This document shows positions 34,683-44,734 of a DNA stretch of 50,265 nucleotides, piece by piece; within the stretch, counting starts at the first letter, position 1, and each line of letters opens with the position of its first letter. Under the pieces are notes generated by a model that worked only from the letters and a program-made list of their open reading frames with translations, was not told the DNA's origin and ran no database searches. Origin of the DNA: a virus; IMG/VR virus record IMGVR_UViG_3300050821_001954, positions 1 through 50,265 of that record; one strand, given 5' to 3'. The position numbers and the translations under genes are program-made.

Positions 34683-34951
34683 GTTCGAGTCACGTTTGCC
34701 GCGATCAGGTTCGCAGCCCTTTCTTTGATGAGTACCAACAGTTGGGAGAAGACCCGGCCGCGAGCTGCGTAGTGAGCTACTACTGCTGTGCGGGCGGCAT
34801 CGAGACCTTCGTTGCGGCACTGCTCGTCCGCGAACCGCATCTCGTAGTCGAAGATTTTACTGAGGCCGCTTACCAGTTGTGGGTTTTGCAGTGCGTCCAG
34901 GACGGCTTGCTGCTCCGCTCCCGTTAGGACGTCCTTGAGCTGGACTTTCAT
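34679..34951 (-). CDS. Hypothetical protein overlapping portal 3' end, 90 aa
   Basis: ATG 34951 (MKVQLKDVLTGAEQQAVLDA) lies 94 bases inside the portal gene's end in another frame. It is helical throughout (SKIFDYEMRFADEQCRNEGL; AARGRVFSQLLVLIKERAAN). Long overlaps are unusual here. The good codon structure and conserved-looking helices suggest it is real. Function unknown. Confidence 0.55.
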   Translation of the reverse strand: MKVQLKDVLTGAEQQAVLDALQNPQLVSGLSKIFDYEMRFADEQCRNEGLDAARTAVVAHYAARGRVFSQLLVLIKERAANLIAANVTRT

Positions 34952-37106
34952 ACTCAACAGGCCTTTCTAACTCCGAGGCATTATCTGCTGCTTCACGTAC
35001 TTTGCCAAGTAGTTTCCCTACGCCTTCAACGTGAGTCATTTCTGTCGGTAGAGCTTCATGTTGAAGAATGGCCGCCTTGACGTCTGGCTCTAGCTTATCC
35101 CAAGGAATCGAGACTGTAATCGACATCTTCACAGGCGGGACCGGAGGCTGCGGAGGTGGGGGCGGCAGGATTACGTCCTCGGGGTTCACCCCTGGGGTAG
35201 CCTGCGCCAACTTGGTGATGACGTTCCGGATGTTCACAATGTCCGGATGGCGCTCACCGAGTACAAGGAACTGCTGCAGGGCCCCTACGCGGAACTGGTC
35301 ATCCGAGGCCAGCGTCGAGCCCGCTTCCGGCAGGATCTCGTAGTCCTCCTGAATATCCATCGGGGAGACCTTGATGTATCGAGCCTGCGCCCCCTGCGTC
35401 CGTAGGCTCACCGCCTCGATGCGCTCGAAGTACTTCCGCGGCACGTCGACGTCCTCGTCCATCGCCTGTTGGTCCATCCAGAGCTGCAATTCAACCGAGT
35501 CCCGGATGAACATATTCACTTGGTCGAGCGTGTCGGCTGTTACCGAATCGGACGCCTTGGCTTGCAGCGCTGCGGTCGTGGCAAACTTGCCGGCTTGAGG
35601 ATTATCGGAGGTTCCTGGGGCGTAATCCGAAATCGATGGGTCCGTCGACTGCATCTGCTGGCCGTACTGTGCCTGATCCTGCCAAGCCTCGCTCGGGAAT
35701 ATCGGGTCTTGCCACGGCTTCATCTCGTTCAGGTTGTCCACGTCCACGATGCGAGCAAAGTCGGTGCGAACTAGGTCGTAGGCCGTCTGATCGCCGCCGC
35801 GGAGCCGCAGCACCAGCGGCAGGAGCTTGTTATTGATGAAGTCGGTCGTCTGGTTCAGGCGGGTGTTTCTCAGCATCATCAGGAACCGCGTGACGCGCAG
35901 CGTGCTCATCCCGATCCCGCCCAGCCAGTCGGGTATTAACACCATTTCGCTGTACTGATACCGCCCGTAGGTGTCCCAGGGATACCACAGGCGACCGAGA
36001 TAGTCGGACTCTTCCCCGATGAAGTCGATCGCCAAGTGGCCGTTGATGAATGTGTGGCGCTCATCACACATGAACCGCTTCTTGGGCGCCTTGATGGGCT
36101 TGCCGGCGGTGATCGGGTCGGCTATCTCGATCTCTTCCCGCATCCGGCGCCGGAGGGATAGCTCCTGCTCATCGAGGTACGTGCGCTGGCCGGCCTTCTT
36201 CATTACGCTGTCGCACGCCTTTTCATCGAATACGGGCTTTTCTTCCCCCGTTTCGGGGTCAATTGTCGTCTGTGACAGCCAGTATTCCAGCCATTCGGCA
36301 TCCCGCTGACTGTTCTCGATGATATAGCCCGACTCGTTGAGTGACCGGAAGCCGGGCTCGGGGAACACATCGCCGTTGAAGACTCCAGCCAGCACCGGCC
36401 CCTTGTACTTGATGGTCTCTTTCGGGAGGCTCACGTCGTCGCCTAGTGTGGCGACCATCTGCGACATTTCGTCTGGGTTCAACGGTGTTGGGTCGAGCAA
36501 CCGAGGTCCGAACTGTTGCACCGCCTTAGCGATCTGCGGGTCTTTCGACTTGGCGAGTTGCTTGAAGTCCTGGGGTTGCAAAGTAGTTGTCAGCTTGCGG
36601 AGCCTGCGCAGTACAGGCACCTCGTCGTAGTAGTTCTTCCCGACGCCCCAGCCCATCCCATACGCCCAGGAGACTATCTTCTTGAATTCCTTCTGGGATT
36701 CTGCGCGATCCCAGTTGAACATGAGCTTGGCCGAAGTCTTCTCGCGGAGTTTGTCGCCAGCATCTGAGTCAGGGCCGCCGCGGACGCGAAGGTTCGGGGG
36801 GTTTCGAGTAAGGCGCGCCGTACCTCGTCGGAGCATGACAAAGTGGTCGGGCACGCATACGTTGGTTCGGCCGGAGTTGTCTTCTTTGGTCTCATCGGTC
36901 TTCCTGTCGTAGTAGCGGTAGGGCTTCGTGCGGGCGTTGATGTTGCGGTAGATCTCGGCGAACTCCGTATAGTAGTTCTCGTTGAAGTACCGCATCGAGG
37001 CTTTGCGCTGCTCGATGACGTTGGCAACGATGTCCTTCGGGCTCTTCTCGTCCTCGATGTGACCTTTGAACTTGCGGGTTGGCTGCTGAGGTGGCTTAGG
37101 CGCCAT
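34857..37106 (-). CDS. Portal protein, 749 aa
   Basis: Size, position and sequence fit a podovirus/P22-like portal: an N-terminal helical stem region (FNENYYTEFAEIYRNINART), the conserved VCVPDHFVMLRRGTARL, WDRAESQKEFKKIVSWAYGM and the wing region (YPWDTYGRYQYSEMVLIPDW). Then come TTDFINNKLLPLVLRLRGGD and the crown/barrel-like C-terminal helices with SVELQLWMDQQAMDEDVDVP. The end is disordered, basic and Pro-rich. It forms the 12-subunit ring through which DNA enters and leaves the capsid. It is followed downstream by the accessory island and only then by the head genes. Confidence 0.87.
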   Translation of the reverse strand: MAPKPPQQPTRKFKGHIEDEKSPKDIVANVIEQRKASMRYFNENYYTEFAEIYRNINARTKPYRYYDRKTDETKEDNSGRTNVCVPDHFVMLRRGTARLTRNPPNLRVRGGPDSDAGDKLREKTSAKLMFNWDRAESQKEFKKIVSWAYGMGWGVGKNYYDEVPVLRRLRKLTTTLQPQDFKQLAKSKDPQIAKAVQQFGPRLLDPTPLNPDEMSQMVATLGDDVSLPKETIKYKGPVLAGVFNGDVFPEPGFRSLNESGYIIENSQRDAEWLEYWLSQTTIDPETGEEKPVFDEKACDSVMKKAGQRTYLDEQELSLRRRMREEIEIADPITAGKPIKAPKKRFMCDERHTFINGHLAIDFIGEESDYLGRLWYPWDTYGRYQYSEMVLIPDWLGGIGMSTLRVTRFLMMLRNTRLNQTTDFINNKLLPLVLRLRGGDQTAYDLVRTDFARIVDVDNLNEMKPWQDPIFPSEAWQDQAQYGQQMQSTDPSISDYAPGTSDNPQAGKFATTAALQAKASDSVTADTLDQVNMFIRDSVELQLWMDQQAMDEDVDVPRKYFERIEAVSLRTQGAQARYIKVSPMDIQEDYEILPEAGSTLASDDQFRVGALQQFLVLGERHPDIVNIRNVITKLAQATPGVNPEDVILPPPPPQPPVPPVKMSITVSIPWDKLEPDVKAAILQHEALPTEMTHVEGVGKLLGKVREAADNASELERPVEYESPAQGRPNGSGAASRPGRTAKPTTGKRPQ

Positions 37107-37745: not shown

Positions 37746-38684
37746 TCACCAGCCAGTCGCCTCGCAAATCGGAATGCGCTGCTCTCTCTGCGGTCGTAGC
37801 TCTATGAACCCCGGGCGCGCCGTCTCGATGTAAGCGAGACAATCGAGAGCATGTTTCTGGTACGAAATCGGTTTCTCGTCTCTCGCTGATTCCGCCTCGC
37901 CCTCAGGGAACCGCACGTTCTCAAACTCGTCGATCGTTTCGATACAGGTCTCGAACACGCGCATCCGCGGCGGTCCGTCTCCCTGTGACGGCATAAGCTT
38001 CCTAGCTATTGAATCGTAAGCTTTACCGAGATTGTCGCTACCCTTCAGTGCCGGCCGGAAGTTCAGATTGATCTTCAGTTCATTCCCAAGGCGCAAGTAG
38101 CTGTCGAAGTAGTCCTCGCCTTGGCCTTCGTCTGAATACGTTGCCTTGCCGAAGGTGTCCATGAACCGTCTGCCGGCGACCGATAGCTTGCGCCCCCGTG
38201 CCCACTCGAACGGCACAGGCTTGTTCTTGCTGTCCGACTCGAATAGCTGGATAGCCTCGGCGTAGTCGCGCGTCAGATACCTTGCGCCATCGGTGGGACC
38301 GTACTTGGTTCCAAACTCCGGCCAGAACTCTCCGCATACTATGCAGTCTCCATATTTGTTGAAAGCCTCGTAGGCCATCGCGTGAGCCGTTCGAGGGTGT
38401 GGGTCCAGCGCCATCCACAGCGTCCAGTAGTTCGGGTCTGATAGGTTGGCCGGCGGGCAGACGTTGCGGGAGGCGTGGAACTGCGGGTATAGGAGCTCGC
38501 CTTCCAAAGCCTCGTATTCGATCTCGAGCTCACGGCGCCGGCGGGCTTCGGAGGTGTAGCGCGCACTGAGCACCGCAAGCCTCTCGGGCGTCATATCCGG
38601 GTCGGCTGAGTAGTGGAGTCTGACGACGGGTATCCCGGCGCTGGGATGGCCGGGAGGGATGCGACGTAGGGTTAGACCTTGCAT
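37746..38684 (-). CDS. Terminase large subunit, nuclease half, 312 aa
   Basis: The N-terminus VVRLHYSADPDMTPERLAVL and ELEIEYEALEGELLYPQF correspond to the linker between ATPase and nuclease in phage large terminases. A RNase-H-like nuclease core follows: YWTLWMALDPHPRTAHAMAY (first catalytic Asp region), FGKATYSDEGQGEDYFDSYL and FENVRFPEGEAESA. The region HALDCLAYIE carries the last acidic residues. It lacks any Walker motif because the ATPase domain is encoded separately by 38859-39659. Both ORFs are in the same frame. Confidence 0.83.
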   Translation of the reverse strand: MQGLTLRRIPPGHPSAGIPVVRLHYSADPDMTPERLAVLSARYTSEARRRRELEIEYEALEGELLYPQFHASRNVCPPANLSDPNYWTLWMALDPHPRTAHAMAYEAFNKYGDCIVCGEFWPEFGTKYGPTDGARYLTRDYAEAIQLFESDSKNKPVPFEWARGRKLSVAGRRFMDTFGKATYSDEGQGEDYFDSYLRLGNELKINLNFRPALKGSDNLGKAYDSIARKLMPSQGDGPPRMRVFETCIETIDEFENVRFPEGEAESARDEKPISYQKHALDCLAYIETARPGFIELRPQREQRIPICEATGW

Positions 38685-38685
38685 G

Positions 38686-38862
38686 TTACGCGAAAGCCTC
38701 TAACTGGCCGCAGCACCCGCCGCACCTCCCATCCCACTGTAGTTCCTGCTCGCCGGCGTACTTCCGCAATCCCCAATACGGCGGCGAGGTCACGCAGCAT
38801 TGGACGGAATCATCGGTCAATGGAATCCGTCGAGCGTTTGCACAAACAAGAAGCAGGCTCAT
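38686..38862 (-). CDS. Methyltransferase N-terminal fragment within terminase gene, 58 aa
   Basis: ATG 38862 overlaps the stop of the terminase ATPase ORF (ATGA), and the stop lies one base before the nuclease ATG. The peptide contains NARRIPLTDDSVQCCVTSPP followed by YWGLRKYAGE, the catalytic motif IV (S-P-P-Y) and target region of beta-class DNA N-methyltransferases, in which this motif is N-terminal. The rest of such an enzyme (motif I and target recognition) is missing. It is either a remnant or a small spliced-in module. It interrupts the terminase with stops in the terminase frame. Confidence 0.6.
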   Translation of the reverse strand: MSLLLVCANARRIPLTDDSVQCCVTSPPYWGLRKYAGEQELQWDGRCGGCCGQLEAFA

Positions 38863-39659
38863 ACGTTCAGTGCCTCCGGCACCGCCACCTTCGTTACCCT
38901 TCGAAACCAGCTTGGCGCCGCCGAGCTTATCACAAGTACCCGAGGCACCTTCGAGGAAATTGCCACGTCGAACGCTTCCCCGCCGTTCTCGATGAAGCAG
39001 GCTTCGTCCATGACCACGATCGTCGGGTGCTCCGACCGGATCTTGTCGGGGTCTTTGCCTGGCAAAGCCAGTAGTTGCCCGCCATCCTTCCACTCGAGCT
39101 GCCGGTACGATTGCCTCTCACGCGCTCGATCCAATGGGAAAAGTCCTCGGAGTGCTGCCGTCTGCTGCTCGTAGAGCGTCCATGAATAGTTCAGGAGCCC
39201 AAGAGACCGGTCTTCGTCCTGTGCCCAATAGATTGCCTTTGCCGGCTGATGCGTCTGAATGTAATGTGTCGTCTCGGCCGCTGCCCACCAGGAGCACATC
39301 ATGGTGCGGCTCTTCTCGATGAACAGAAACGGCTCACGCAGCCAGAGGTTATGTAGGACGTTGAGATACTTCTTCGGCGGGAATGGCTTATAGGCTCGGT
39401 ACTGGTCCTGATCGTCCCTCGTCCTTGTCGCCCTCCACATCCAGAATAGGCTGTCCAGGATTGCTCCGGCTGTGAAGTTCTCTGACCGCATTAAGAATTC
39501 GCGCTTCTGCGTCGAGTCCAAGGAAGCCCAGATTAACCGTAACTCCGCCGGATTCAGTACGAGCTGTGTTGGCTTCGTCGTCGTGGTGTCCGTTGCCGAC
39601 GATACCGAGGAATCGCGCGGATTCAACTGAGGCTCTGAGTTGAACGTCGTTGTCTGCAT
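38859..39659 (-). CDS. Terminase large subunit, ATPase half, 266 aa
   Basis: The Walker A-like motif is FIEKSRTMMCSWWAAAETTH, Walker B is TIVVMDEACFIENGG, and the coupling motif is LVISSAAPSWFRRV. The N-terminal adaptor region TRDDQDQYRAYKPFPPKKYL is typical. The ORF stops 22 residues after the coupling motif, where other terminases continue into the nuclease domain. Start ATG 39659 has GGAG ten bases upstream. Alternatives are 39707 and 39491. All overlap the small terminase gene, but the frame from about residue 50 is clearly terminase. Confidence 0.82.
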   Translation of the reverse strand: MQTTTFNSEPQLNPRDSSVSSATDTTTTKPTQLVLNPAELRLIWASLDSTQKREFLMRSENFTAGAILDSLFWMWRATRTRDDQDQYRAYKPFPPKKYLNVLHNLWLREPFLFIEKSRTMMCSWWAAAETTHYIQTHQPAKAIYWAQDEDRSLGLLNYSWTLYEQQTAALRGLFPLDRARERQSYRQLEWKDGGQLLALPGKDPDKIRSEHPTIVVMDEACFIENGGEAFDVAISSKVPRVLVISSAAPSWFRRVTKVAVPEALNV

Positions 39660-39963
39660 CGTAGTGCGTCTCCATTGTGATGCCCTGATGGGCCTGACGA
39701 TCGACAATCTTGGCTTCCCTGAGGGCCTGCATCTTTCCGTAGATAGAAACCAATTCCTTACCTATCTCGTATCCTGCTGCCTCTAGTGCAGGATGAAATC
39801 GTAACTTGATTGCTTTGTAGGCGTTATGTGCAGCCTTGTTCGGGTGGGCGTATCCTGCTTGGCGGCCTGCTTCCGTGACTGATAATCCCCGCTTGATACC
39901 TTGGACTAGCTTCTTCTGCTTTTCAGTGATGGGTGCTCGACGGCGTTTCTTCCGGGGCTTCAC
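39388..39963 (-). CDS. Terminase small subunit, 191 aa
   Basis: A basic start (MKPRKKRRRAPITEKQKKLV) is followed by a HTH DNA-binding domain (QGIKRGLSVTEAGRQAGYAH) and HNAYKAIKLRFHPALEAAG. Then comes an oligomerisation helix region (KELVSIYGKMQALREAKIVD) and a segment with VQLRASVESARFLGIVG, typical of phage small terminases that recognise packaging sites. The GTG start at 39963 has no Shine-Dalgarno and lies close to a candidate promoter. The C-terminal third overlaps the large-subunit start in another frame. Confidence 0.77.
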   Translation of the reverse strand: MKPRKKRRRAPITEKQKKLVQGIKRGLSVTEAGRQAGYAHPNKAAHNAYKAIKLRFHPALEAAGYEIGKELVSIYGKMQALREAKIVDRQAHQGITMETHYDADNDVQLRASVESARFLGIVGNGHHDDEANTARTESGGVTVNLGFLGLDAEARILNAVRELHSRSNPGQPILDVEGDKDEGRSGPVPSL

Positions 39964-42955: not shown

Positions 42956-43158
42956 GAGCGTTTCGCCTCCTCCATCGATTCGCACATGGCCTTGAAACAG
43001 TTGTAGTCGAAACAGTATTCCTCTCTGCCGTCGATCTCGAAGCTGAGAATGTCCGACGTATTATGATGAACGGCCCGCAACGTGTGGCCGGGACATCCTT
43101 GCTGTCGGCAATCGTTGAAGCATGTGTACTTAACTTCCTTGCCGTAGGATGTGCTCAT
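42952..43158 (-). CDS. Small Cys-rich protein, 68 aa
   Basis: MSTSYGKEVKYTCFNDCRQQ, then GCPGHTLRAVHHN, then GREEYCFDYNCFKAMCESME. Seven Cys and three His residues suggest one or two zinc sites. It ends EEAKRS, whose codons form the ribosome site of the downstream gene. The ATGA overlap with the radical SAM gene indicates co-translation. Confidence 0.6.
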   Translation of the reverse strand: MSTSYGKEVKYTCFNDCRQQGCPGHTLRAVHHNTSDILSFEIDGREEYCFDYNCFKAMCESMEEAKRS

Positions 43159-44063
43159 CGCCGTTTCGCCTCCTCCCTCATGGCCGCGTCTCCGCTTGCT
43201 TCCTGGGTGGGGCGGGCGCGGTAGATTGCGGGTCTAGACCAGTATCGGTTCAGGGCTTTCCATTCTTGGCTGTACACTTTCGTTGGCATGTCGGCTGTTG
43301 GCGGCTGATACAGTTGCGAGAATGGTAGGAAGCCCATTGAGTAGACCGTTTCGCATCGGTGCTTGGCATCGGCTAGAGTTTCGTCATCGTAGCCAATCAT
43401 CGTGTAGCAGCGCATTTTGTTTACTGAAATCCCTTCGCATATTTCCTTGGCTCTCCGCAGCCAGTCAATGTCCTTGCCCCCTACATCGCAAGCGAACCAA
43501 AGCTCTCCAATCTTGATGGAGTCGAATAGTTCACGGTGCCACGGTTGCAAAAAGTGCTTGTCCAATCCGCCGTTGAAATAGATGGGGCGGTCCTGCTCTC
43601 GTAGCATGGCGAATACGGCCTCTAGGTGTTTACGCTCGCAGGCCAAGAGATTGTTGTCTTGCACGATGAATCCCGGCTTGATGGAGAGGTAGCGCAAATC
43701 GCCCTCTGAGAATGGCACCTTGCACCAGCCGCACTTTTTCGGGCAGCCTCGGCTTGTGATTACACAGCCATGCTTTAGGAATCGACCTGGCACAAACTCT
43801 CCGGCAGGGTCGTCGTAGGCTGGCCCTCCCACGCGCACGTCTCGGTAATACATTCGCCAACTATCGGCCAGCTTCTCAGCGTAGGACCGCTCCCAAGTGA
43901 ACGTGCAACTAACTCTAACAGAGGTATACTCAGTGCCCGGACGGTACAAAGGTGGCTGCCCTACGAAAGCCATTTCATCATCAGGAGTCCACTTGTTTCT
44001 AGTAGGAAACACGCGGATGACCTGAGAGTTAGGCAACAGTCCGTCCAATGGCACCGTGCTCAC
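43155..44063 (-). CDS. B12-type radical SAM protein, 302 aa
   Basis: The N-terminal part (PNSQVIRVFPTRNKWTPDDE; VGGPAYDDPAGEFVPGRFLK) resembles the cobalamin-type leader of such proteins but lacks an obvious DxHxxG. The cluster motif CVITSRGCPKKCGWCKVPFS (CxxxCxxC) and following EGDLRYLSIKPGFIVQDNNL, PIYFNGGLDKHF and MRCYTMIGYDDETLADA are the radical SAM TIM-barrel. Closely similar proteins are common in environmental phages, and their substrate is unknown. The GTG start overlaps the methyltransferase stop (GTGA). Confidence 0.78.
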   Translation of the reverse strand: MSTVPLDGLLPNSQVIRVFPTRNKWTPDDEMAFVGQPPLYRPGTEYTSVRVSCTFTWERSYAEKLADSWRMYYRDVRVGGPAYDDPAGEFVPGRFLKHGCVITSRGCPKKCGWCKVPFSEGDLRYLSIKPGFIVQDNNLLACERKHLEAVFAMLREQDRPIYFNGGLDKHFLQPWHRELFDSIKIGELWFACDVGGKDIDWLRRAKEICEGISVNKMRCYTMIGYDDETLADAKHRCETVYSMGFLPFSQLYQPPTADMPTKVYSQEWKALNRYWSRPAIYRARPTQEASGDAAMREEAKRR

Positions 44064-44734
44064 CGTTTCCCCTCCGCTTCTGTGGGCCGGGCCAACCGTT
44101 GCTCCAGGATGCGCTCGGCGTAATCCGCTACGCAGTTGGCTAGTTCGGGTGGAATGGTGGCGAGCAAAGGTTTACGAACACTCTTTGATAGGCGAAGTTC
44201 AGGCGCGAAATTGCCAGGTTTACCAGAACGCCCGTGCTGCTCGTTTGGTCGCCATTTTGCTTTACTGATTCCCTGACCCATGACTATCGGGACTCCACTC
44301 CCCCACAGATAGAACGGCCCGCAGTGATTAACCGCATTACCCACAAACTGCTGCGCCGCTCGCACGTTCTCCATGACATAGGGCACGCCTGATGCTTCAC
44401 ATAGCGCTCGCGTGTGCTCAAACATCTTGATGCCCAACTCTGGGTAGGGTGGATTGGGATGGAAGTGCTTCATGCCGTGAACCGAGAATTGCTCGCAGGG
44501 GCTAGAGGCGCAGATGAAGTCGAAGCGGTCAGCTATTGGCTTATTGCGCCCGTCATTGGTGCATAGGAAGCCATCCCGCTGCCACTCCAGTTTTAGAATG
44601 TCCCACTGAATGAAGTGACAGCCCTTAGGAATCTCTGGCGGCTCAACCAGGTCCACGCCCACACACTCCCAGCCACGGGCCGCAAAGGCCTTGCTCCAGC
44701 CCCATCTTCCGCAGAACAGGTCCAGCAGCCTCAC
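44060..44734 (-). CDS. DNA C5-cytosine methyltransferase, 224 aa
   Basis: Motif I is MRLLDLFCGRWGWSKAFAAR, and the catalytic motif IV is FICASSPCEQFSVHGMKHFH (Pro-Cys). Motif VI is PYVMENVRAAQQFVGNAVNH. The C-terminal motif region is KPLLATIPPELANCVADYAE. The protein is shorter than typical Dcm enzymes because the target-recognition region is small. It would methylate phage or host DNA, perhaps to evade restriction, in line with the DarB-like protein. It starts at GTG 44734, whose Shine-Dalgarno is inside a 38-bp direct repeat. Confidence 0.87.
   Translation of the reverse strand: MRLLDLFCGRWGWSKAFAARGWECVGVDLVEPPEIPKGCHFIQWDILKLEWQRDGFLCTNDGRNKPIADRFDFICASSPCEQFSVHGMKHFHPNPPYPELGIKMFEHTRALCEASGVPYVMENVRAAQQFVGNAVNHCGPFYLWGSGVPIVMGQGISKAKWRPNEQHGRSGKPGNFAPELRLSKSVRKPLLATIPPELANCVADYAERILEQRLARPTEAEGKR

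Follow-up and report, generated by a model that had tools for sequence, protein, structure and literature searches.

A two-gene large terminase, broken inside the predicted ATPase fold, in a clade of soil and environmental phages

Introduction

Large terminases (TerL) encoded by two genes are already known from Arthrobacter phages of cluster AY, such as BillyTP (PP978841), in which the ATPase and the nuclease are the products of two consecutive genes (PMC11920828). Here we describe a TerL that is also encoded in two open reading frames (ORFs), but with a different break point, in a 50,265-nucleotide viral sequence (IMG/VR record IMGVR_UViG_3300050821_001954, positions 1 to 50,265; this whole stretch is called the window below). 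The locus very probably represents a two-gene TerL whose chains are translated separately and reassemble non-covalently into one protomer, and which goes back to a single ancestral split, a junction that became a cargo site, and two later re-fusions. The new features are that the split affects a whole phage clade and falls inside the ATPase fold, that the cargo at the junction varies, and that the halves have apparently re-fused.

As in cluster AY, the two genes are consecutive genes of a tailed phage that follow the small terminase (TerS) gene and precede the portal gene, both of which are putative here. The BillyTP chains (359 and 198 residues) map to the single-chain family phrog_9 at 75-467 and 478-673, so that their break coincides with the domain junction. 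Here, the break falls at about residue 238 of a relative with an uninterrupted TerL (L040; relatives are cited by locus number), whereas the domain boundary lies at about residue 297. Unlike in BillyTP, the ATPase chain has only about 240-280 residues, the nuclease chain carries some 60 residues of the ATPase fold, and cargo is found between the halves. The families also differ when compared by PHROG assignment only (phrog_9, phrog_19179, and phrog_21277 for BillyTP, phrog_2-like here). The phrase ‘split terminase’ was not met in the literature searched, and the cluster AY precedent is worded otherwise (PMC11920828).

Two other kinds of system are comparable. In mirusviruses and alloherpesviruses, TerL is likewise in two pieces with a break within the ATPase domain, near Walker B, and the pieces are trans-spliced as RNA (PMC12768974); in the present clade the hosts are presumed to be bacterial, the pieces often overlap, and no intron was found. 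T4-like phages have other essential enzymes in pieces, with foreign genes between the two ORFs, as in NrdA of Aeh1 (split by mobE), gene 43 of phage 25, and the T4 topoisomerase; two-chain function has been shown for Aeh1 NrdA and phage 25 gene 43 (PMC2988022). Those cases concern other proteins, while the cargo here is mostly not endonuclease, the split is clade-wide, and there are two apparent re-fusions. The TerL proteins of T4 (gp17), D6E, Sf6 (gp2), and P22 (gp2) have the same ATPase and RNase H-like folds, but in one polypeptide.

Organization of the terminase locus

The gene order on the minus strand is a TerS-like gene, the ATPase ORF, a 58-codon ORF, the nuclease ORF, and then a 749-residue ORF:

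38859..39659 (from TTG: 39707), minus strand, TerL ATPase ORF (phrog_2 match)
38686..38862, minus strand, 58-codon methyltransferase-like cargo ORF (phrog_67 match)
37746..38684, minus strand, TerL ‘nuclease’ ORF of 312 residues (predicted fold)
39388..39963, minus strand, probable TerS directly upstream (phrog_51, E=3e-4; phrog_1595, E=2e-3)
34857..37106, minus strand, 749-residue ORF downstream in the packaging region, presumed portal from its position only

A preliminary description of the locus had reported an ATPase half with three motifs, a nuclease half restarting in the same frame, and a small ORF with a methyltransferase motif wedged between them in a spacer with stops, all of which was confirmed. 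The ATPase ORF has 266 or 282 residues, depending on whether it starts at the ATG at 39659 or the TTG at 39707. Its TGA at 38859 overlaps the start of the 58-codon ORF (38862) as ATGA. The nuclease ATG at 38684 stands one base past the stop of the small ORF (38686), in the frame of the ATPase ORF. That frame meets four stops in the spacer, namely the one that ends the ATPase ORF and a further three. The two TerL domains are therefore not found together on one polypeptide in the window, nor are they in 55 of the 58 loci surveyed below, and since two ORFs with stops between them encode the protein, the claim made here is that this two-chain variant would function in the manner of TerL.

The ATPase half matches the TerL family phrog_2 (E=5e-5) and carries a Walker A-like motif (EKSRTMMxSW, present as KSRTMMCSW in the window), a Walker B motif (VVMDEA), and a coupling motif (SSA, within ISSA), ending about 20 residues past the latter. 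The Walker A motif is deviant, with KSRTMMxS lacking the usual glycine. The lysine, serine, arginine, aspartate, and glutamate of these motifs are invariant across 24 relatives; because EKSRTMM served as search bait, the invariance of the Walker A-like motif is partly a product of selection. Together with the match of a fused relative to the T4 gp17 fold, the three motifs and the phrog_2 match identify this half as a TerL ATPase. Neither terminase half gave a match in Pfam.

Conservation of the split among relatives

Relatives were gathered by protein-based searches and then by alignment-based scans, with both halves required, which gave a set of 58 loci comprising the window, 56 viral contigs (a few of the contigs being near-duplicates), and one contig of an Acidobacteriaceae metagenome-assembled genome (MAG). 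TerL is present as two ORFs with the same break point in 55 of the 58, and as one ORF in three (the nearly identical L040 and L041, and L013). In most split loci, the halves overlap or sit within a few tens of bases of each other, and in L036, L038, L053, L065, and L076 they share a 4-nt ATGA or GTGA overlap with nothing in between. Both ORFs are conserved and under purifying selection across the clade, the ratio of nonsynonymous to synonymous substitution rates (dN/dS) lying at about 0.01-0.2 for either half in almost every close pair with a computable value. A Shine-Dalgarno (SD)-like sequence precedes the nuclease start in 26 of 45 loci as against 17% of internal start codons, a comparison in which the choice of start itself favoured SD.

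The clade is a little-known group of soil and environmental phages. Neither half had a match in 50,697 phage records (nucleotide and tblastn searches), so that collection holds no close member of the clade. A scan of GTDB contig genomes returned a single relative, the Acidobacteriaceae MAG contig with terminase genes (L033, PKVW01000024.1), which suggests that at least some members of the clade infect Acidobacteriota.

Position of the break in the fold

The break was located with a predicted structure of the fused L040 protein (79 rows, mean predicted local distance difference test (pLDDT) score 87.9). Residues 31-298 of this model match the ATPase domain of T4 gp17 (2o0j; Z 23.1, root-mean-square deviation 2.4, 237 residues aligned), and residues 297-525 match the P22 nuclease domain (Z 17.3). 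The ATPase chains of the clade cover residues 1 to about 235-238 of L040, and the majority of nuclease chains begin at about 239; those of the distant group have an extra N-terminal stretch relative to this mapping. With the domain boundary at about residue 297, the break at about 238 thus lies inside the ATPase domain, some 60 residues before the boundary. The preliminary description had put it at the domain linker, which the model does not bear out.

In L040 numbering, the break falls about 20 residues past the coupling motif (SSA, 218-220), between predicted strands 233-239 and 242-246, and the second chain holds the strand 257-261 and the helices 271-290 with which the ATPase fold ends. 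In T4 gp17, such C-terminal ATPase residues are known to form the end of the core and the lid. A break just past the coupling motif would accordingly leave the ‘nuclease’ chain bearing the last ATPase strand and the lid.

The nuclease half itself is only weakly similar to PHROG terminase families (E=0.02), and sequence profiles of the halves found no relevant match in the PDB, so that the link to TerL structures comes through fold comparison. An AlphaFold2 model of the window's nuclease chain (pLDDT 84.9) matches D6E TerL with a Z of 19.5 and the nuclease domains of P22, SPP1, G20c, and T4 with Z of 14-17. Residues 63-294 align with T4 gp17 361-562, and residues 59-298 with the P22 nuclease (4dkw; Z 17.0). 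The predicted layout is therefore a C-terminal portion of the ATPase fold at 1-62 (last strand and lid) followed by an RNase H-like nuclease at 63-294. D94 is found in all 38 aligned rows and D281 in 37 of them (the other having a gap), which makes them likely catalytic acids; D176 is conserved in the window's subgroup and aligned less cleanly in the distant group. The fold match and the conserved acids identify the chain as an RNase H/RuvC-like nuclease with an acidic active site.

A conserved extension of about 30 residues precedes the core of the nuclease chain in L017, L033, L056, L067, L073, L076, L077, L080, and their relatives (e.g. LEGVPAQTRVEVIRGVTVRRKK). This N-terminal extension, found in the distant half of the clade, is a candidate element for docking the ATPase chain.

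Cargo at the junction

The 58-codon ORF between the halves matches the DNA methyltransferase family phrog_67 over residues 14-44 (E=1.6e-5), and tblastn against phage methyltransferases aligned it at 70% over 27 residues and 48% over 42 residues. It has the catalytic S/DPPY motif of beta-class enzymes (TSPPYWGLR), and lacks both the part that binds S-adenosylmethionine and a full-length catalytic domain. In Microcystis phage Mae-JY04, it matches the beginning of a gene about 478 residues long. The ORF is most simply read as the leftover N-terminus of a methyltransferase gene and is too short for an enzyme.

Elsewhere in the clade, the junction holds other genes. In the window's subclade and a few other loci, the gap between the halves ranges from 114 to 3788 bp. 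It contains a nucleoside deoxyribosyltransferase-like gene in L002, a NUMOD4-HNH endonuclease in L039 (the only locus with HNH), a 3.8-kb sugar cassette of PIG-L, DUF6625, RmlD-like, and glycosyltransferase genes in L046 (6588-10458), and, in the other main group, a Mom-family gene in L072. Other cargo genes had no Pfam match. Close relatives differ in cargo too, as with L002 (728 bp) and L029 (118 bp), and the starts of several cargo genes, the window's included, overlap the ATPase stop. Variable cargo at a shared junction implies that insertion there is a repeated event of which the methyltransferase stub is one instance.

The window encodes other methyltransferase-like proteins on the minus strand. 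One at 44060-44734 is DNA methyltransferase-like (phrog_363, E=5e-14), with no kinship to the 58-codon stub seen. Two small methyltransferase-domain proteins lie in the structural gene region at 29616-30248 and 30586-31233 (Pfam Methyltransf_23, E=1.6e-7, and Methyltransf_12, E=4e-8).

Origin of the split and alternative explanations

The features of the clade are best explained by the following scheme. A single split in the ancestor of the ‘EKSRTMM’ phage clade would have given an ATPase chain, running through the coupling motif, and a nuclease chain, both translated separately from one operon, where overlapping or near-abutting stop and start codons may assist tandem translation. Since the first chain by itself lacks the end of the ATPase fold, which the start of the second chain supplies, the two would come together non-covalently as one working TerL protomer. 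Cargo genes would then have been tolerated at the stop/start junction, where the window keeps the residual 58-codon methyltransferase stub, and two lineages would later have re-fused the TerL pieces. Separate translation, co-assembly, and a function in packaging are inferred. Among the three readings offered in the preliminary description, this two-chain terminase is the best supported; RNA-level processing and a domesticated insertion at the linker fared worse.

The trees of the two halves (quick-mode, midpoint-rooted, with some open forks) agree on the main groups. In both trees, the fused members attach at different points, L013 as sister to the split L044/L045 and L040 as sister to the split L037-L039. 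All 30 rows of the other main group are split, mostly without an insert. Since the fused members nest twice among split ones, one old split followed by two re-fusions is the simplest history, and natural fusions nested in split subclades point directly to the two products acting as a single protein. The methyltransferase fragment is no more than the window's version of the variable cargo and is younger than the split.

An alternative history, in which a fused TerL is ancestral and insertions of the homing-endonuclease type split it repeatedly at one site, would leave the working of the two chains untouched. It draws on the NUMOD4-HNH gene between the halves of L039, and a working two-chain enzyme from an HNH-split essential phage gene is on record (nrdA of Aeh1; PMC2988022). 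Against it, an ancestral fusion would require about nine same-position splits in the ATPase tree and about six in the nuclease tree (a manual count on the drawn trees), versus one split and two fusions. Moreover, HNH is confined to one locus, the other main group is split mostly without any insert, and in the window itself a methyltransferase stub, not an endonuclease, lies between the halves. We regard this history as unlikely.

Some points nevertheless weigh against the two-chain scheme. The fused form may be ancestral after all, in which case about six to nine splits would have hit one place independently. The predicted structure is that of a fused relative and not of a two-chain complex, several nuclease starts, that of the window included, have only a weak SD-like sequence, and the evidence for the clade consists of gene sequences and predicted structures.

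A single TerL chain could also be restored at the level of RNA, the spacer being an intron or the halves being joined in trans. Besides the mirusviral case above, terL is spliced in phage ICP1 (PMC10448857), and a spacer-free join of the window's halves would be missing no residues relative to L040. Yet no group I or II intron was found with Rfam at the gathering threshold in 11 sources (the window and 10 relatives), and the spacers, which share no sequence relationship, contain whole genes. At 174 nt, all of it ORF, the window's spacer is short for a group I intron. In many relatives the ORFs overlap or abut, so there is nothing to splice out, which contradicts the RNA-level processing proposed earlier. 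This possibility is very improbable. As for inteins, for which no search with a dedicated model was made, no additional domain was seen at the end of the ATPase chain or the start of the nuclease chain in the window and close relatives.

Recoding, by frameshift, stop readthrough, or ribosome bypass, might yield some fused TerL, and in a few relatives (L049, L067, L073, L077) the nuclease ORF does follow the ATPase stop in frame. The frame relation of the halves among members with a close gap is mixed, however (12/12/5), and the halves are therefore not linked by a conserved frameshift or readthrough. Four terminase-frame stops, counting that of the ATPase ORF, lie in the window's spacer, and 0.3-3.8 kb of cargo separates the halves in many relatives. 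Recoding is rejected as very improbable in view of the mixed frames and of the stops or whole genes between the halves in the window and many relatives.

A recent methyltransferase insertion that split, and perhaps broke, a single-chain TerL in this phage alone has a negligible probability: the stub does fit exactly into the space between the halves, sharing ATGA with the first and stopping one base short of the second, but the closest relatives have the same-place split with other cargo or none, the first five relatives found were all split and all without a methyltransferase, which contradicts it, and both chains keep their invariant residues under purifying selection in the clade. The split is not an artefact of assembly, and it is not a recent insertion either. 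The methyltransferase fragment as the cause of the split is refuted by the 55 of 58 loci that are split at the same place with an unrelated spacer or none. The uninterrupted gene looked for among relatives does exist in the three fused loci, and the prevalence of the split form counts only against a split caused by the methyltransferase. A domesticated insertion at the domain linker has the order of events wrong, since the split predates the stub, and does not fit the place of the break.

Other features of the window

The 749-residue ORF had no Pfam or PHROG match; a similar-looking ORF is found at the same place in L004. A scan of the region for promoters and terminators gave results no better than shuffled sequences. 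On the minus strand, positions 27774-27851 match the Rfam tRNA family (RF00005, 54 bits). The anticodon loop of this tRNA-like gene has 8 bases (TTCAATGA), its CCA end is encoded, and ARAGORN assigned it a four-base anticodon, ‘caat’; it is possibly a frameshift-type tRNA. Two radical-SAM-type proteins are also encoded on the minus strand, one at 32143-33348 (phrog_21308, E=4e-12, with a weaker QueE-like match) and one at 43155-44063 (phrog_9298, E=1e-17).

Implications

Because neither half matched Pfam and PHROGs barely recognised the nuclease half, such phages will be overlooked or wrongly called by annotation pipelines designed around a single-chain TerL. The crosstalk between the ATPase and nuclease of TerL, by which packaging and cutting are balanced, is an open question that is usually approached via engineered truncations. 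A natural, long-lived split inside the ATPase domain, with two apparent re-fusions, offers chains that could be mixed, mutated, and titrated separately. We lean modestly toward the broader view that a widespread phage lineage has its ATPase fold permanently in two chains, in which the nuclease subunit would supply the last strand and the lid, so that ATPase activity would depend on, or could be controlled by, its arrival, and in which the junction would serve as a recurrent site for cargo.
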